NCBI GenBank assembly: GCA_030247885.1
Contig: JAPDRO010000005.1
Span: forward strand, 248,001 to 312,000
Length of the DNA stretch: 64,000 nucleotides
Reading direction: 5' to 3'
From: Taxawa tesnikishii (nom. ined.)
Lineage: Eukaryota > Ascomycota > Dothideomycetes > Dothideales
The notes below the pieces were generated by a model. The model saw nothing but the letters and a program-made list of their open reading frames with translations, did not search any database and had not been told where the DNA came from. This document shows, in pieces, positions 1 to 52,789 of this stretch. How positions within the stretch are numbered: position 1 is the stretch's first letter; each line of letters starts with the position of its first letter. A program made the translations under genes and the position numbers.

Positions 1-240
1 GGCAGCACACTACAAGCATACCACTCACTGCTCTTCTTGTGGGTGTATGCAGAAACGAAAGCGCTGCGGACCTGCGTACTGGAGGAGAGCGGTTTCGGCT
101 GGTATTGGCCCGAAGGCATGGCTTGGCGTGGAATTAAAGTTCACAAAGGGATTTTCGACAGAAAGAAAAAAGAAAAAGAGGGTTCAGGAATGATCAATTC
201 CTTGATGTGATGCTTAGGAAAAGCCCAACGCGGGGTCGAA

Positions 241-293
241 CTACAGACATGTTAGTACATGTAGTTCGCTGGAAGGGCTGGCACGTAACGTAC
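241..293 (-). other. 53-nt insertion in tRNA T arm resembling a spliceosomal intron
   Basis: The insertion begins GTACGT, carries TACTAAC about 16 nt before its end and finishes CTGTAG. These are the signals seen at protein-gene introns in this window, and the 53-nt length matches them. It sits between the GCGGG strand of the T stem and TTCGA. Its 3' half can also fold as a hairpin, because GAACTACA and TGTAGTTC are inverted copies across the junction. The B-box core GTTCGACC is kept because the insertion ends in G. Confidence 0.5.
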
Positions 294-309
294 CCCGCAA
301 CCTTCAGAT

Positions 310-340
310 GAATCTCTGCATTCATGCGTTGATGATATGT
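310..340 (-). other. tRNA intron in anticodon loop (31 nt)
   Basis: The insertion lies between positions 37 and 38 of the tRNA, the standard place for introns removed by the tRNA splicing endonuclease. It starts right after CTTA and ends before the 3' anticodon strand. Exact boundaries are inferred from the position rule. Confidence 0.55.
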
Positions 341-377
341 TAAGAGTCTCACGCTCTACCGATTGAGCTAGCCCGGC

Positions 378-4851: not shown

Positions 4852-5987
4852 ATGAAGTTCTCAACCTTGTCTGTCTTGCTTCTGACCGCCGTCTCGACAC
4901 TCGCCGCCCCTCTCGTCGAGAGGGCTACCGGCCGTACTACTGCTCCTTCCGGCACCTTGGTCGTAAGCAAGTCGGCTAAGAGCGGTCAATATTCTACCAT
5001 CCAAGCCGCCATCAACAAGCTCTCAACTAGCTCGACCGCCGCACAGAGCATCTTCATCGAGTCCGGTGTCTATGACGAGCAAGTGTACATCCCAGCCCGC
5101 AAGGCCGCCCTTACCATCTACGGCTACACCACCGACACTTCTTCCTACGTTCACAATACGGTCAACATCACCCACGGCATCGGTGCCGACACCGCCGGCA
5201 CCGATGACCTTTCCGGAACCGTCAGGAACTGGGCCGAAAACACGAAGGTGTACAACATCAACATCATCAACACACGCGGCCAGGGATCGCAGGCCATCGC
5301 CATCTCGGCATCTGCTGGCAACCAGGGTTACTACGGATGCCAGTTCTGGGGCTTCCAGGACACCGTCATGGCACAGACGGGCGCTCAGCTCTACGCAAAG
5401 TCGCTCATCGTCGGTGCCACTGACTTCATTTTTGGCCAGCACGCAACTGCATGGTTCTCGCAGGTTGACCTCCGTGTCCTGAAGGCAAGCAAGGGTTACG
5501 TTACCGCCAATGGCCGTCCTTCCTCTACCGACCCCAGCTTTTACGTCTTCGACCGCTGCACCATTGCTGCTGCTGCTGGGAACTCTGTCCCCACTGGTGC
5601 TTACTATCTTGGTCGCCCATGGTAAGTCAAATGAACATGGAAAGACTTGACCGGTTATTGAGCTTGCGTTAGGGAGAATACGCCCGTGTGATGTTCCAGG
5701 GAACCGGCATGACCAACGTCATCAACAGTGCTGGCTGGTCTGTCTGGGGCAGCAGCGACCCCAGAACTGCCCACGCGACCTTTGAAGAGTACAACAGTGA
5801 GTTGCTCCCCGTCCAAGTAGGAATCTGTACAGTAGTTGATACGGTGGATGCAGACAGCGGAGCAGGCAGCACCGGCACTCGTGCTAGCTTCTCGAAGAAA
5901 ACGACTGCCTCCGTCGGTACCTCGACCGTCCTGGGCCAGGGCTACGCCAAGTTCGGCTGGGTCGACACGAGCTACCTGCCAGCATAA
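4852..5987 (+). CDS. Secreted pectin methylesterase (CE8), one base out of frame at first splice junction
   Basis: Three exons: about 4852-5621, 5673-5796 and 5854-5987. The N-terminus is a clear signal peptide, with a hydrophobic core ending LAAPLVERA. Family motifs are GFQDT with the acid/base Asp at about 170, DFIFG with the nucleophile Asp at about 191, and the GRPW motif whose Arg (~255) binds substrate. After the introns follow EYARVMFQ, GWSVWG and the C-terminal YNNSGAG. The enzyme removes methyl esters from pectin outside the cell, preparing it for lyases and polygalacturonases. At intron 1 the donor TG|GTAAGT and acceptor GTTAG|GGAG leave the next exon one base short. One more G in the GGG run at 5672-5674 would restore WGEYAR. 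As written, the enzyme would stop just after the Trp. Either a base-call error or a young inactive allele. Confidence 0.85.
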
Positions 5988-12205: not shown

Positions 12206-13137
12206 CTAGTGGGGGCCGTTGGCGACGGAGAAAGGGGTTGGATACAAGATGCTCGGTGTTCTAGGGTTGAAGGAAAGTCTCTGCCGTCTAGCATATTGCG
12301 CCCCCCCTCCCCCTCCTCCAGTGCCATCAGTATAAGCACCGCCGGCATCGCCCAAACAGTCAGCTACAACCATCCGTCAGCACCCCCATTCTTCCGCAAA
12401 CATCACTGCATCGCAAATCCCGAGAAGACTCACCAACGGTAACCAGCTTCAGATTGTTAGTCTTTGCCCAATTGACCAACCACTGCACGAGCTGAGTGAC
12501 CGCAGTCTGGTAGACCTCATGCATGAGCGGGAATGTGGCCATTACCAGCGGGTGCGGCCTTTGTAAACCGCGCCTCGCTCTGCGCGACCGCGTACCCGTT
12601 CCAATCTCCCGAGTCGACGTCGTCGGGTGATGACGCGGTAGCCCAGGGACGGACTTCATGACGCTCTGGACGTTGCCGCCGGTGGCGAGGTACGGCGGCC
12701 GCATGTACGTCGGCCTGACGCCGATGATGTTGACAAGCGCGAGTCTCTCGAGCTTGCGCATCTGCGTCGTGAGGTCCGCCGCGCTGAGCGACGCGAGCTT
12801 GGCCGGGTGCGTCCGGGTGTGGGATGCGATTTGGTGGCCGGATGCGTACGCCGACTTGACCGCCGCGGCTTGGTTGTAGATGCAGCCGTACAGGGTGCCG
12901 GTGACGAAGAAGGTCGCTTTGGCGCCTACGGCATTGAGTGTGTTGACTAGCGTTTGGGTGGACTGGTACGGGCCATCGTCAAAGGCGAGGGGCGAGCACG
13001 CCGGGTCGGTTGCATTTGGTTATTACGGTTCCAGCGGCGGGACCTGCGCGTTTCAACGCTTCGAGAGGGTCGGGTACAGGGCTTGCAGAGGCGCCAAAGG
13101 CCAGGATGAGAGATGCGAAGAGGGGAAGGAAACGCAT
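12206..13137 (-). pseudogene. Chitin deacetylase-like (CE4), four single-base frame breaks
   Basis: The gene starts at 13137 with a signal peptide (MRFLPLFASLILAFGASA). In pieces of three frames it carries all polysaccharide-deacetylase motifs: AFDDGPY (metal/catalytic Asp pair), SHTRTHP (metal-binding His pair), RPPY, SGDWNGYAVAQSEARF and LMHEVYQ. A last intron (about 12355-12425) joins LVTV to DCLGDAGG and a Gly-rich tail, with stop at 12206. The enzyme would turn chitin into chitosan at the wall. The frame changes are all explained by one extra C (minus strand) in C runs at 12989-12992, 12646-12648, 12625-12627 and 12529-12531. Between them the codons still encode conserved residues with no stops. 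This is either a recently dead gene or an intact gene with homopolymer errors in the assembly. Four same-direction changes favour a technical cause, but I cannot prove it. Confidence 0.8.
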
Positions 13138-39995: not shown

Positions 39996-40588
39996 ATGGT
40001 GTCCACTCTGATCCCTCCTAAGGTGAGTTTTCCCTTTGCCGGTGCTGCTGAAACCTTTGCGCTGACAGAGCACAGATTGCCTCGCCAACCGTAAGTTCCT
40101 CGCTCGATTCTCCCTGAACACGATTCTTCGGATCTGCCGCAGTCACATTCAATCACCTATCTTTCTGAGCATACTTTGTCGAGTGATGGCACAACAAAGA
40201 GGATACCTGAATGAAGAAGGTGGCTAATTGAATGGGGAAGGGCATCGGCGCCGCACAGGATGCCGTCCGCATGCAGCGCGTAGTGTCGTTCTACGAGAAG
40301 CTTCCTCGTGGACCAGCCCCAGAAGTCAAGCCAAGGGGATTCCTGCAAAGATACCAGGCAAGATACATGGGCAAGAATCCCTCGGCGATGCGTACGGCTC
40401 CTGGATGCACATACTACGTACATTGGGTTGACGGAATGCGCAGCTCTCGTCCACATCATTGGCGGTCTGATCCTCATCGGCTACGCTCAGAACTACTACT
40501 TCCATCTCCGTACGTGCAAAGGAGAACATACTGGTGCAGCACTGGTGCTGACTGAAGCGCAGGTCACCACAAGAACAACAAGCACTAG
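39996..40588 (+). CDS. atp17: Mitochondrial F1Fo-ATP synthase subunit f, 94 aa
   Basis: Five exons: 39996-40022, 40076-40090, 40241-40391, 40444-40509 and 40563-40588. Exon 2 is a 15-nt microexon coding IASPT. The joined product has STLIPPKIASPT, GIGAAQDAVRMQRVVSFYEKLPRGPAPEVKP and YQARYMGKNPSA, then one membrane helix (LVHIIGGLILIGYAQNYY) and the tail HLRHHKNNKH. This is the standard form of fungal Atp17, a small Fo subunit in the inner membrane that helps the peripheral stalk and dimer formation. The four introns in a 285-nt coding sequence are 53, 150, 52 and 53 nt. Confidence 0.93.
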
Positions 40589-41293: not shown

Positions 41294-44200
41294 ATGCCGC
41301 AGCACGCGCAACCTCATATGTCGCCTTCTTCAACTTCTGAACAAACTCATTCTGACCACGGCCGCGGCGATCCCGCGGATATAGTTACGGATTCTGTTAT
41401 GGCAGATCAGAGCACCCAGCATGTGGTGAACAACGCAGAGTCGGTGGCCGACCCCTCGTCCATCGACGCGCATACGAACAACCCTACCACTGCGACTGCC
41501 GGAAACGGCCAAGCCCAACCACTGCAACACGCCGATTCTAAATCACTCCCCGAACCAAACAGCGATTTGAACCCGATCTCCGCCCGGTCGATCTTAGCAG
41601 ACAGCGCTCCAACTATAAACCTGGATGGTGTCACCGCTACGTCTACAGGAACTTTAAACCAACAAGATGCTACTAGCGCGGGTATCGAGGCGAACGGGTT
41701 TCGTGATGCCAATCCTGGATTAGAAGAGCATGGTGCTGGAGGATCAGACACGGACACGAGCAAAGCCGACAGCACAGATCAGCAGAGAGATGGACAGGGC
41801 AGGACTTTGAGGTCAAATTCGGTTAAGAAACCCACCTTGTTCAAGCCTGTGTCTGTCACAAAGGCTTTCCTGGCGAAATCTGCTTCAGCAGCCCCTGTCA
41901 CGAAAGTTGGAGAGAAAGGTAAAACAGCTGGGCTTGGGCAGGAAATGCAGTTTTTACTAAGAAATGCTACGCAGGACCAACAAACAGCACTCTTCAGACA
42001 AGCGTAAAGCCACGTCTCATCGCAAAATCTGGGAGTGGTCTCCGAGATATTCCCCGAGTACGCTCAGCCGCCGACGGTGCTAATGGACCAGACGGCAACA
42101 CTGTCTGGAACAAGAACCGACGTATGCTTGTCCCGACTTCACCTCAGTCTGGCACTTGGCTAACGAAACGCAGCTGCCCCTCCACCACCACCAAGACAGT
42201 TTACGGATGAGGAACTAAAGCAGCAATATGGCATCCATTTAGCGACACGTTTGCAATCAGACGAGCCCGGAAAGGAGTCGAAATGGGCCGATATTGACGA
42301 CGATGAGGAAGATTGGGTGCCAGAGACCGTTGAATGGATGGATGGAACAAAATCCACAACTGCGCCAAAGGATGCTCAGCCAATTCCTACCGAGACCCCG
42401 GAACCGGCACCAAAGAAGCAAGACGAACAGGCTCCATCAACCAAGCCAGTATTGACCACGCTGAAGAGACAGACATCATTGAACCCGACAAGGACAATCC
42501 TAAAGCCCGGTGCGGCAGCGCAGCAAGCGAAGCAAAGCGGAGTCGGTGCAAGAGGGGCGCCGGAAAGGCCAACGCTCGTCGCGAAGAGTCCAGCACCTGC
42601 TCCAGTCAAATCCCCTTGGGCACCGTTGCCTCCAGTTGACAAGGTATCTCCAGTGGTCATTAATCCCCTCCTCAACCGCAGCCGACCCCAAACTTTGGAC
42701 AGCGGGACCCTCATGGTTTTGATGCGATGCCGCAAACTTCACCTGCTCGTGAGATTGCTACAGACACATTTGATAGGTCTTGGAGGGAGAACGAAAGAGG
42801 CAACAGGGAACTGTTCAATGCGCATTCGAATCGATACGAACCTGCTCCGGAGTTCAGACGAGGATCAAAACAGGACCATGGCTTCCGACAGCAACCAGCA
42901 GTGCTGCAGCGTCCGTCTCAGCAGAACATGGCGCAACCGGAACCATCTGCAGCATTCCAAACAAGCAGATCCAGTGGTCAAATGGACGGGGCGTCCTGGG
43001 GCCGCAGAAGAGGTTCCAGTGTGAGTGGTGGCAGTAGCGTACCGCGCGATAGACGGATGTCTTTCACCAGAAACGATCCTGCTGTTCTGCCTAACGATGC
43101 ACGTGGTGCAACCGTTGTCGGCCGTGACGTGAGCACTTCACCGCAAGCTATGGCACATACACCAGCCTTCCCGACGCAATCTCCATGGCAGCAGCAGATG
43201 CCTCCTCCACCTCCGCGTGGTGAGGTGCCACCTGCAGATTTCCAAGCCCCACCGACAGCATCTATGCAGGATGAAGTGGCAAGACAGAAAGAGGTGATGC
43301 GCGAGAAGCGCGAAGCTGCCATCAGGCGCAGAAGAGAGGAAGAGGAGCGAGAAGAAGCCGCACGCAAGGAGCGCATCAGGCTCAAGATGGAGCAACTGGG
43401 AATGGCGCCTCTTGGGCCCAAAAAGGACGAGGCAAAATCTCCTGGACCGGAAAAACAAGCAGAGCAGCAAGCTTTGATGGACACGGTAGTAAAGACTGCG
43501 TCTTCCCTGCAAGGAGCTCCTCACGAGCAAGCTTCGCAACCGACCGAGGCTTCCGCTTCAGAAGCTGCAAAGCTCGAGGCCCAAGCCCAGCCGGCTTCAG
43601 AAACCTCATTGCAACAACAACAACCACAGCAACCACCGAAGGAGTCGACTCCGATTTCAGTTCCGCCTCCACAGCTAGAGGGCCAACATCCTGTGCACCA
43701 GCTCCCTCTCAAGCCAGTGGAGGCTCCTCAGTTACCTGTGCGTCAAACAAGCTCGCCAAGTGTACAGGCTCGTGGACAGTACCAGCAGCAACCTCCCCTT
43801 CAGGGCCTCGCGGCTGCATCATCATACTCTTCTCCAGGGGAGCAGAAGCCGCAGCCGTCTTGGAAGTCTCCTTCCCTCAACAATGACCTTTCAGCACCGT
43901 GGGGTCACAACAGTATTGCTACGCATGCAGTTCAAGGCGGCAATGTGTGGGGTCCTCCTAATGCAAACCGTGGCATCGGCAATGGCACCTTTGACAACTC
44001 TTACCGAATTGCATCAAACCATCACCAACACCAAGCTGGTGGATTTGGCGCTTCAAGCTTTGGAAGATTGCAGCCAAACAGGATGCATCAACAGGGATTC
44101 CATCCTCCAAGCCGGTCACCAGAAATGCACCACCCCTTAGCAGACCATCCACAGACTGCTCGTAAGCCGACCATGGAACCATTCGGCCTCGATTCGATGG

Positions 44201-47228: not shown

Positions 47229-48903
47229 ATGGCTACCACGGTATGTGAACGCGACCCCCTATTCGAGCTTTCTCTCCTCGAAGCCCAGTAACTGCACGCC
47301 AGAAGTGTGCTGACCATGCTGACCCCTTCATAGCCCACTTATGATCCTACTCAGCCAAGAGGCGGCGATCCCCTCAACGTCGATGTCAACGCTCAGTTTT
47401 CCGGCTTCGAGTTTCACTACACCTACCTCATCTTCTGTGGCTTCATTGTATGGCTTATCATTCCCGGAATCGGCCTCCTCTATGGAGGTCTTGCTAAGCG
47501 CAAGAGCGGTCTCTCGTTACTCTTCCAGAGTTTGATGGTTGCATCAGTGTGCGTTACGCGTGCTTCTACCTTGCCATACATTACTCTGTACTAACACCGA
47601 TTAGCACGACCTTCCAATGGATGTTTTGGGGCTACTCCCTTGCCTTCTCCCGCACTGCCAACGCCTTCATCGGTGATCTTGCCAACTTCGGAATGAAGAA
47701 CGTCGGTGTTGCTCCTTCTCCCGGCAGTGCCGTGATCCCAGAGATCGTCTTCTGCTTCTACGAAATGGTCTTCTGCACCTGCACCGTCATGATCGTTGTC
47801 GGTGGTTCCTTTGATCGTGGCCGCATCCTTCCCTCCCTTGTCTTCGGCTTCCTCTGGGCCACCATCGTCTACTGCCCGATCGCTTGCTGGACCTGGAACG
47901 CCAACGGCTGGCTGTACAACTTGCCATCCCTCGACTTTGCTGGTGGTGGACCTGTGCACATTGCTAGCGGATGGGCGGCGCTGGCTTACGCGCTGGTCTT
48001 GGGCAAGAGAAAGACACACGGCAAGGGCACCCACCACGCCAAGCCACACAACACCACCCTCATCTTCTTGGGAACAGGTCAGTACTTGGGAGCTTTGCAA
48101 TTCGTCAGTGTTCGGTCGCTAACCTGTTGTTTAAAGTCCTCATCTGGTTTGGCTGGTTCGGATTCAACGGTGGTTCCGCACTCAACGCTACCATGCGCGC
48201 CGTGGTCGCTGCCTTCAATACCAATACTGCCGCCTCCATGGGTGCGATTGGCTGGGTGATGGTTGACTTCATCCGCACCAAGGGCCGCTTCAGTGTCGTC
48301 GGCGCTTGTGAGGGTGCTATCGCTGGTCTCGTGGGTATCACTCCTGCTGCCGGTTACGTCTCTGTCTGGCTCGCCGCCGTCATCGGATTCCTGACCGCTG
48401 TCGGTTGCGCCCTTCTTCAGGACATCAACGAGTGGATCGGCATCGACGACGGTCTCTACGTCTTCAAGCTGCACGGTATCGGCGGTATGCTTGGGTCCTT
48501 CTTCACCGGTATCTTCGCCGATCAGGCCGTCTCGGCGCTCGACGGTGTTTCGCTCTACCCCGGTGGCATCAACGGCAACGGTGTCCAGGTCGGTAAGCAG
48601 TTTGCTGAGATCACTGCCATCTCGTCCTACTCCTTCGTCGTCAGCTGCATCCTGTTGCTGGCGCTGAAATATATTCCTTTCATGCATCTGCGTGTCGGCG
48701 AGGAGGCTGAGCTCAAGGGTCTCGACCTGGATCAATTCTTCGATGAGCAGATTGGCGACTGGGAATTTGCCAACATGGGTGTCGGCATTGAGGGTCAGAG
48801 GAACGTCGTTGAGGGCATCAACGTCGGTCCTAGTCAGCCCGTTAGCAGCAGGGTCAGTGAGAGTGTTGAGCGTCAGGGAGTTGAGGCCGAACAAAAGGCT
48901 TAG
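47229..48903 (+). CDS. Mep/Amt ammonium transporter, 488 aa
   Basis: Four exons: 47229-47240, 47334-47548, 47605-48077 and 48137-48903. Exon 1 is 12 nt (MATT) and the introns are 93, 56 and 59 nt. The protein has the family's eleven-helix pattern, with GIGLLYGGLAKRKSGLSLL in the first helices, WMFWGYSLAFS, and WTWNANGWLYNL. The Amt signature LDFAGGGPVHIASG carries the first pore His, and KLHGIGGMLGSFFTG the second. The C-terminal cytosolic tail has a conserved start (LRVGEEAELKGLDLDQFFDEQIGDWEF), which gates the trimer in this family. It imports ammonium at the plasma membrane and is normally induced when nitrogen is poor. Whether it is the high-affinity sensor type (Mep2) cannot be settled here. 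A decayed, distant paralogue lies 13 kb upstream. Confidence 0.95.
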
Positions 48904-49897: not shown

Positions 49898-52735
49898 ATG
49901 GGCAGATCCGGCACCAAGACCGTTCCTATCCTCCCTCTCGCCCAGGGTTCCGTCCTGCTTCCCGGCGTCACCCTCCGCATTCCGCTTCAGAACCGGGGCG
50001 ATATAGCTGCCGTCCTCGCGAACGTCTACAGCAGAGCCAGCACGCCCCGACCGGATGCTTCCTCCATTACTATCGGATGTGTTCCCATCAACTCGCCCTA
50101 CCTTAGCCCCGATGGCAACAAGCTTCTTGAAGATGCCGTCAAGAGCAGGAAGCAGGACTATGAGATAGATCCAGCCCAGGCGAAGGCGAGGGATCTCTTC
50201 AGACACGGCACTGTTGCTAAGATCTCTGGTGTACAAGGAAGGAGGCAAGGCGAGCTGGCCTTGATCGTGGAAGGAGTGAGCAGATTCAAGGTGGAGAAGG
50301 TGCTGCAGGACAGGCCCTACTTTGAGGCGAGGGTCAGCATTTACGAGGATGACGGTAAGCACTGATCGACCCTCCGCAAGTCAAAGGTGCTGACGAACGA
50401 CCACAGCAGTCCCAGACGAAGCTGCCGACATCGAGGACCTCTTCAACCAGCTAAAGCAATTGTCTCGAGAACTCCTCGCCCTTGTCAGGCTATCTTCGCT
50501 CCTGCCGCGTGGCCCTTCCACATCTCTATCCCCCATTCTCGCTCGACGACTCGAACTGTACATTGTCCGAAAAGACCTAACAGAAGCCGGTGTTCTCGCA
50601 GACTTTATGATCAATGTTGTGGAATGCACGCACGAGGAGAAGCTTAGAGTGCTCTCAGCACTGTCCGTCAGGGACCGTCTAGAACGCGCAGTCGAGATCG
50701 TGCAGAAGAACGTCTCAATGATCCAGAACAACAACAGAGTGCTTTCGGTTAGCACAGACGTTGCCGGCGGAGACCAAAACCAGCTGAACAGGTTGCGGCA
50801 ACAACAACTGTTGAGGCGGTTCGGAAACGGACAGACACCACCTGGTGCAATGGGTCTCCCTCCTGGATTTGGAGGTAACGGACAGGGGGAGGAAGAGGGC
50901 AACGAGATGGAGGAACTGAAGAAGCGGTTGGAAGACGCCAAGCTCAGCCCGGAGGCCCAGAAAGCTGCGGATAGGGAAATGAAGCGGTTACAGAAGATGA
51001 ACCCTGCACAGGCCGAGTACCAGGTCTGCCGGACATACCTCGAGAATTTGGCAGAGATCCCCTGGACCAAGGTTACAGAGGACAAGCTGGATGCTTCCAC
51101 CCTGTCACGCGCCCGCCAGCAGCTCGATGACGACCATTACGGCCTGGAGAAAATCAAGAAGAGGCTTCTTGAGTACCTCGCGGTGCTGAAGCTCAAGCAA
51201 GCTGTCAATGCAGACCTTCAGGGGCAGATTGACAGGATCCATCAAGAGACCAAGGCCCCAAGGAAGACTGACGAGGAAGAAGTGGGCGCCGAGGCCCAAG
51301 ATGTCGAGCCCCAACCTCAGCGCCAGCAGACACCGGAAGAGATCAAAATCCTCAACAACAAGCGCATGGTCGACAAGTCTCCTATCCTTCTCCTGGTCGG
51401 TCCCCGGGTACCGGCAAGACCAGCCTTGCAAAGTCTGTTGCCACCGCGCTCGGTCGCAAATTCCACCGTATTTCTCTTGGTGGTGTAAGGGATGAAGCAG
51501 AGATCCGCGGTCACAGGAGGACTTATGTTGCTGCTATGCCTGGTCTGATCGTCAACGGCCTGAAGAAAGTAGGCGTATCGAATCCGGTATTCCTTCTGGA
51601 CGAGATCGACAAGGTCGGCACCTCCAGCTTTCACGGAGATCCATCTGCAGCGATGCTGGAAGTCCTTGATCCTGAACAAAACCATACCTTCACCGACCAC
51701 TATGTCAACATCCCTATCGACTTGAGTAAGGTCCTCTTCATCGCGACTGCGAACTCCCTTGACACTATCCCACCTCCGCTGCTCGACCGTATGGAGACAA
51801 TCCAGCTCTCTGGTTACACTACCCTCGAGAAGCGCCACATCGCCAACCGCCACCTCATCCCCAAGCAGATCACAACCAACGGGCTCAATCCCGATCAGGT
51901 GCAACTGTCCGACGAGGTTGTCGACAAGATCATTACCTCGTACACACGCGAGTCGGGCGTACGTAACCTGGAGCGGGAGATCGGATCCGTGTGTCGCTCA
52001 AAGGCAGTCCAGTTCGCCGAAAGTCAGGATGCCTCATCGCACTCCTCATACAGCCCCGTCGTGGCGATCGAAGACCTCGAAGACATGCTCGGCATTGAGC
52101 GCTTCGAAGAAGAGATTGCGGCAACGTCGTCCCGCCCCGGCGTCGTCACCGGTCTTGTCGCCTACTCGTCCGGAGCCCAGGGCAGCATTCTCTTCATTGA
52201 AATTGCCGACATGCCCGGTACTGGTCGCGTCCAGCTCACCGGCAAGCTAGGCGACGTGCTCAAGGAGAGCGTCGAAGTCGCACTGTCCTGGGTCAAAGCG
52301 CACGCTTACGAGCTCGCACTCACCCATGACCCCAGCGAAGACATCATGAAGAACCGCGCCATCCATGTCCACTGTCCTAGCGGCGCCATACCCAAGGATG
52401 GGCCCTCGGCTGGTCTGGCGCATACGATTGCGCTCATCTCCCTGTTCGCAGGTAAGGCGGTGCCGCCGACGCTGGCTATGACTGGCGAAGTCAGTCTGCG
52501 CGGCAAGGTTCTGCCTGTCGGCGGGATTAAGGAGAAGTTGATTGGTGCGATGAGGGCCGGGGTGAAGAAGGTCTTGTTGCCGAATGCGAATAGGAAGGAT
52601 GCGAAGGATTTGCCGGGTGAGGTCAAGGAGGGCTTGGACATTGTGCACGTGGGTAGCATTTGGGAAGCATTGAGGCAGGTCTGGCCGGACTGGAGTGTTA
52701 GTGAGAGGGGTTGGGGTATTGAGAGCCGGTTGTAG
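49898..52735 (+). CDS. Peroxisomal Lon protease, one base out of frame in Walker A
   Basis: Exon 1 is 49898-50354. A 52-nt intron has a tandem CAGCAG acceptor, and exon 2 runs to 52735. The N-terminal substrate domain ([21 protein letters not shown]) is followed by a helical region ([26 protein letters not shown]) and the AAA module. The ATPase reads LLLVGP at about 484, Walker [10 protein letters not shown] at about 545, and [18 protein letters not shown]. The Lon protease domain has catalytic Ser in PKDGPSAG and Lys in GGIKEKL. The C-terminus SRL is a PTS1 signal, so it works in the peroxisome matrix on misfolded or unneeded proteins, unlike mitochondrial Pim1. At 51402-51405 (CCCC) one C is missing: GPPGTGKT is read as GPRVPAR and then stops. 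Both sides are otherwise perfectly conserved, so an assembly error is most likely. Confidence 0.95.
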
Positions 52736-52773: not shown

Positions 52774-52789
52774 GGGGGGGGGGGGGGGG
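52774..52789. repeat. Poly-G run of 16
   Basis: Just 39 bp after the Lon stop codon. Run length is likely imprecise in any assembly. Confidence 0.85.

Follow-up and report, generated by a model that had tools for sequence, protein, structure and literature searches.

The tRNA-Lys(CUU) gene and its two insertions

The analyzed window, a stretch of 64,000 nucleotides from contig JAPDRO010000005.1 of the ascomycete Taxawa tesnikishii (nom. ined.), includes genes for the casein kinase II beta subunit, an ammonium transporter, Lon, a pectinesterase, and a CoA-transferase III. Near the beginning of the window, a tRNA-Lys(CUU) gene was found on the reverse strand, where it is interrupted by one insertion in the anticodon loop and another in the T arm (Table 1). 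Among the protein-coding genes, the pectinesterase gene (4852-5984) has exons that are out of frame across a 51-nt GTAAGT...TTAG segment (5622-5672). Its exon 2 gave weak PDB matches, where all three of the matches listed were pectinesterases (best E 0.082), and it gave no Pfam match.

The segment 377-222 aligned over the full length of the Rfam tRNA model (1-71 of 71), with long insertions at the anticodon loop and the T loop. With this model, a search of 2000 bases gave the unspliced gene 19.7 bits (E 0.67), short of the gathering cut-off of 29 bits. The locus was missing from the gathering scan of the whole window, and a whole-window scan extended to an E of 10 returned two matches, neither of which was a tRNA. 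Similarly, ARAGORN reported no tRNA in the window, either by default or with introns of up to 100 nt. When the intron limit was raised to 200 nt and the threshold lowered, a 330-base stretch yielded a tRNA-Lys(ctt) call at exactly 377-222 with a single 65-nt anticodon intron, together with one overlapping call on the opposite strand. Removing both insertions produced a 72-nt tRNA-Lys(CTT) cloverleaf in ARAGORN, and this version without either intron was the one used for analysis. With the T-arm insert alone removed, ARAGORN modelled a tRNA-Lys whose intron measured 10 nt and whose variable region was altered.

An earlier, sequence-only reading of this DNA had described a tRNA-Lys gene at 222-377 that is split in its T arm and also carries an ordinary anticodon-loop insertion. 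The split gene is borne out by the Rfam alignment and by ARAGORN on the joined exons, and the anticodon-loop insertion was confirmed as 31 nt at 340-310. The T-arm insert falls at the boundary of stem and loop, between positions 53 (the final base of the T stem) and 54 (the opening base of the T loop), and, as judged by eye, sliding it by one base leaves the joined product unchanged. Additionally, a degenerate form of the tRNA-Lys 5' half had 0 exact matches in viral and prokaryote contig collections, a result that is little informative for a fungal gene.

Table 1. Features of the tRNA-Lys(CUU) locus, in window coordinates.
Feature	Position	Strand	Basis
tRNA-Lys(CUU) gene interrupted by two introns, the second putative; 5' end 377, discriminator base 222	222..377	-	Rfam tRNA covariance model alignment and ARAGORN on joined exons
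Exon 1: 5' strand of the acceptor stem, D arm, anticodon arm up to position 37	341..377	-	Rfam tRNA covariance model, ARAGORN
Intron at canonical position 37/38, 31 nt; expected to be cut by the tRNA splicing endonuclease	310..340	-	ARAGORN on joined exons; site usual in eukaryotes (PMC4090602)
Exon 2: remaining anticodon loop, anticodon stem 3' strand, variable loop, T stem 5' strand	294..309	-	ARAGORN on joined exons
Putative mRNA-type intron, 53 nt, at tRNA positions 53/54	241..293	-	Sequence, motif rarity, comparison introns
Exon 3: T loop, T stem 3' strand, acceptor stem 3' strand, discriminator	222..240	-	ARAGORN on joined exons
5' splice site GTACGT	288..293	-	Sequence; GTACG donor shared with some predicted window introns
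Branch site TACTAAC, branch A at 252	251..257	-	Sequence
3' splice site TAG, first AG past the branch site	241..243	-	Sequence
3' arm of 9-bp Watson-Crick helix across the 3' splice site; 5' arm 260-268	237..245	-	Fold; shuffle test
A box, matching the consensus at 11 of 12 positions	359..370	-	Match to consensus
B box, matching the consensus at 10 of 11 positions in the DNA, 11 of 11 after joining	232..242	-	Match to consensus
TTTT, candidate Pol III terminator	219..222	-	Sequence

Splice signals and comparison with predicted introns

The T-arm insert (293-241) begins with GTACGT, contains TACTAAC, and terminates with CTGTAG, with a distance of 11 nt from the branch A to the 3' end. In its donor, its GT...AG ends, its branch distance, its use of the first AG, and its length, the insert has the features of a U2-type spliceosomal intron.

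The insert was compared with three sets of introns predicted in the window: a strict coding scan gave 8, a looser coding scan gave 9, and a simple Viterbi gene model gave 17. The gene-model introns, which were limited to 45-100 nt and stand without a decoy control, had a median length of 55 nt, and 11 of the 17 were 50-56 nt long. The introns of the looser scan had a median length of 53 nt (n = 9) within limits of 42-109 nt; this set, based on flanking coding sequence, is noisy, as four decoy scans still gave 5, 5, 3, and 1 introns against nine in the real scan. The distance from branch to end in these nine predicted introns was 10-26 nt, with eight of them at 10-13 nt. Donors among the predicted introns included GTAAG, GTACG, GTATG, and GTGAG. 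The agreement of the insert with the window introns in donor and branch is partly built in, since all three scans demanded a GTNNG-type donor, a CTRAY branch, and a YAG acceptor.

The same signals in the 53-nt segment had been noted in the sequence-only reading, which had also equated the length with that of a typical mRNA intron and had proposed an mRNA-type intron inside a tRNA gene. The signals were recovered at 293-241, the length agrees with both medians, and the proposed identity is well supported by the signals together with the window-intron comparison.

The rarity of the motif was estimated from shuffled sequence. A strict motif of 53 nt (GTRNGT, CTRAC, YAG) occurred five times in 3,838,410 base-shuffled positions, a rate of about 1e-6, while a loose motif (GT, CTRAY, AG) occurred 1015 times in the same number of positions. 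Among the 127,894 53-mers of the real window, 23 fit the loose motif and three fit the strict motif. The latter were the tRNA insert and the segments 40023-40075 and 40510-40562, both of which were without an intron call in the gene model. When the length was left free between 45 and 75 nt, 14 segments on the two strands of the window fit the strict motif, and hence the intron motif as such is not rare. What is rare is the fit of both insert ends, which are fixed by the adjacent tRNA positions, and chance does not readily give such a fit.

Signals for Pol III transcription

The B box retains 10 of its 11 consensus positions in the unspliced gene because the terminal AG of the insert replaces two Gs ahead of the T loop. 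The distance from the A box to the B box is 128 nt, a spacing that TFIIIC tolerates. The first TTTT starts at the discriminator base, and none starts within gene nucleotides 1-155. With an A box, a B box, and a first TTTT at the gene end, transcription of the tRNA-Lys gene by Pol III would remain plausible.

Predicted folds and order of processing

In single-sequence predictions, the T stem was not formed in the minimum-energy folds of the full precursor, nor in those of the form without the anticodon intron only. When the T-arm insert alone was removed, the acceptor, the D arm, and the T stem were all formed in the minimum-energy fold. The eukaryotic tRNA endonuclease requires the elbow between D loop and T loop for ordinary introns (PMC6379350). 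Since the endonuclease depends on this elbow and the T stem is predicted to fold only once the insert is gone, we infer that the T-arm intron would have to be removed before the anticodon intron.

The folds also revealed a perfect 9-bp helix between 268-260 and 245-237, and a helix of equal length was found in two of 1000 shuffled inserts. The branch region lies in the loop of this helix, and the acceptor and four T-loop bases are held in its stem. Such a helix could hinder splicing, or it could mark an inverted duplication that arose from the insertion event. Folded alone, the insert was unremarkable (z 0.48). Extended by one base into exon 2 and by four into exon 3, it gave a z score of -3.21, and two of 200 shuffles were as good, with the ends of this segment picked after the helix had been seen.

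Signs of decay and possibly undercalled C runs

The joined tRNA contains two stem mismatches in ARAGORN, G4:G69 and G28:G42, while 19 of the 21 stem pairs are intact. Its T loop is composed of 6 nt and falls short of the 7 nt of a nuclear tRNA. Relative to human tRNA-Lys(CUU), these three differences are the structurally harmful ones. When the joined 72-mer is folded, its minimum-energy structure has no anticodon arm (-23.9 kcal/mol, versus -22.4 kcal/mol for the cloverleaf), and in the predicted precursor the anticodon intron (310-340) pairs through its 3' end with an anticodon-stem strand and displaces the exon stem.

A run of four Cs is common to the end of the T loop and the T stem, and the window contained hints that such runs are undercalled. 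For example, 19 C runs of at least 5 nt were observed versus about 33 expected from shorter runs (P 0.003), and C and G runs of this length together numbered 38 versus 57.5 expected (P 0.0017). The corresponding comparisons gave P values of 0.11 for G, 0.034 for T, and 0.58 for A. A G16 run at 52774-52789, shortly past the Lon stop codon, is an outlier, indicating that long runs are not always lost.

In the Lon gene, a one-base change of reading frame (51380-51420) falls on the CCCC run 51402-51405 near the ATP-binding loop, as a result of either an assembly error or a real break. Past the break, the sequence stays in one frame and, beginning with the ATP-binding loop, matches solved Lon proteins. 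The half ahead of the break is in a different frame, and its match to solved Lon ends about 190 nt upstream; the 24-residue piece directly ahead of the break had no match when searched alone. Because the upstream match stops about 190 nt short, the break is placed at the C run by the gene model and by our reading of the ATP-binding loop motif.

The gene model made 14 frameshift calls in the window. One of these, a deletion at 51405, lies right at the CCCC run of Lon. Another deletion call, at 42677, follows a CCCC run (42665-42668) by 9 nt and is without homology support, and an insertion call at 12990 is located inside a CCCC run. None of the remaining 11 calls was inside such a run, and some of them may be missed introns, as with the calls at 48113 and 48114 within the ammonium-transporter gene, which was recovered in two halves.

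The T loop may have been shortened by an undercall in the assembly, given the C run at its end and the hints of homopolymer undercalls in the window. The G:G mispairs are substitutions, and they are therefore unexplained by such an undercall. The signs of a dying copy that the sequence-only reading had listed thus stand in part: both mismatches and the 6-nt T loop were observed, and the weight of the T loop is reduced by the hints of undercalled C runs.

These observations bear on the possibility that the intron is real but invaded one of several tRNA-Lys(CUU) genes, and that the invaded copy is non-functional and decaying. We consider this a serious possibility, if short of an even chance. 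It would account for the two mispairs, the short T loop, the loss of the anticodon arm from the minimum-energy fold, and the displaced anticodon stem in the predicted precursor, and it is in line with the general view of T-arm insertions in eukaryotic tRNA genes as pseudogenes (PMC4090602). However, a decaying copy is less easily reconciled with splice signals, promoter boxes, a terminator, an anticodon, and 19 of 21 stem pairs that all remain intact, or with a T loop that may be short through undercalling of its terminal C run, as hinted elsewhere in the window.

Other routes and origins for the insert

Two further explanations dispense with a spliceosomal intron, and both appear improbable. 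In the first, the insert would be removed by the tRNA splicing endonuclease, as are archaeal introns at 53/54 or the ectopic introns of red algae and nucleomorphs. Position 53/54 is a listed site of non-canonical introns in archaea, and a bulge-helix-bulge motif was therefore tested; in nucleomorphs, the removal of T-arm introns was confirmed by RT-PCR (PMC4090602). A weak pairing of this kind was present, with G-U pairs in the central helix and an inner helix of 4 bp, but the best candidates had an outer helix of only 0-1 bp and 40 of 1000 shuffled inserts were as good. A bulge-helix-bulge intron was rejected for the T-arm insert on structure, as no good motif was found at the junctions, and removal by the endonuclease would also leave the GTACGT, TACTAAC, and TAG signals unexplained. 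Under the same test, the anticodon intron was found to have no bulge-helix-bulge motif.

In the second, a random or transposon-derived insertion would merely resemble an intron. The insert is part of a 9-bp inverted repeat, a 3-nt direct repeat (GTA) was seen by eye near both of its ends, and DNA transposons that target small-RNA genes are known (PMC3706591). However, no longer direct repeat was seen by eye at the ends, and the inverted repeat does not lie at both termini of the insert. The insert also had no copy within the window, and the strict motif has a rate of about 1e-6 in shuffled sequence. On its ends, its lack of copies in the window, and the motif rarity, such an insertion was rejected. 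The window of 64 kb also provided no donor intron for the insert, as the other BLAST matches were at most 15 nt long (best E 0.13).

An assembly artefact, by which the insert would not exist in the organism, is very unlikely: there were hints of one-base errors in the assembly, but a clean 53-nt intron is of another type than the single-base errors hinted at.

Probable gain of a spliceosomal intron

The best explanation is that a U2-type spliceosomal intron was gained at positions 53/54 of a fungal tRNA-Lys(CUU) gene, besides the anticodon intron. We assign it a probability of roughly 70%, on evidence from the sequence of one locus. This figure covers both a working and a decaying copy, and the chance assigned above to the decaying copy is included in it. 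The odds of the copy being functional or not are about even.

If the copy works, the gene would be transcribed by Pol III, and the 53-nt intron would be removed by the spliceosome in the nucleus. The T arm and the elbow between D loop and T loop could then fold, and the tRNA endonuclease would cut the anticodon intron second. A working nuclear tRNA gene that is spliced twice by two unrelated machines in this fixed order is a tentative reading, which we hold to be possible rather than probable. The intron itself potentially originated through reverse splicing or another form of copying from an existing intron. The sequence-only reading had likewise proposed that the gene may depend on the spliceosome and that its intron may stem from reverse splicing.

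If the copy works in this way, it would, as far as the literature search reached, be the first demonstrated case of a spliceosome-dependent tRNA. An intron in a tRNA would also extend intron gain beyond mRNAs and spliceosome-linked RNAs. Reverse splicing into an unrelated small RNA would also become directly testable. The locus poses the question of whether one Pol III transcript can be processed by the spliceosome and then by the tRNA endonuclease. Even as a dying copy, it would be a record of intron gain in a non-coding gene.

Comparison with known systems

A literature search of paper listings and excerpts, which covered few subscription journals, returned no report of a spliceosomal intron in a nuclear tRNA gene. 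Similarly, no tRNA with such an intron was found in the available excerpts of PMC12730881, PMC11782384, and PMC6726248.

Ectopic tRNA introns are known from archaea, the red alga Cyanidioschyzon merolae, and the nucleomorphs of cryptophytes. Like the T-arm insert, these introns occur at non-canonical sites, including 53/54 in archaea, and they sometimes share a gene with a canonical intron, as in the tRNA-Lys gene (PMC4090602, PMC3978253). However, the archaeal and red-algal introns use bulge-helix-bulge motifs, whereas the tRNA-Lys insert is without a good motif of this type and carries spliceosomal signals. The ectopic introns in the nucleomorph of Guillardia theta are also only 3-24 nt long, in contrast to the 53 nt of the insert.

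Introners and introner-like elements represent intron gain by copying, which resembles the origin proposed for the insert, and some of them carry inverted repeats (PMC7789003). In contrast to these elements, the tRNA-Lys insert is without a clear target duplication, a terminal repeat pair, or a second copy in the 64-kb window. The available excerpt of PMC7789003 makes no mention of tRNAs as hosts.

The introns of fungal U3 snoRNA genes have ordinary spliceosomal signals and interrupt a small structured RNA, as does the tRNA insert. Among small structured RNAs, frequent interruption by an intron is described as known for U3 and U6 only, and tRNAs are not listed (PMC5832005).

Introns of the mRNA type were reported in the U6 snRNA genes of fungi, including fission yeast, where their origin was ascribed to reverse splicing and to the closeness of U6 to the splicing centre (PMC10484740). 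These introns arose several times in fungi (title cited in PMC5832005), and those of Schizosaccharomyces hold a match to the B box (title cited in PMC10484740). The U6 introns and the tRNA insert both place spliceosomal signals inside a Pol III gene. However, the host of the insert is a tRNA and not a spliceosomal RNA, and closeness to the catalytic centre therefore cannot explain its insertion. The insert also differs from the U6 introns in that it coexists with an endonuclease-type intron in one transcript.
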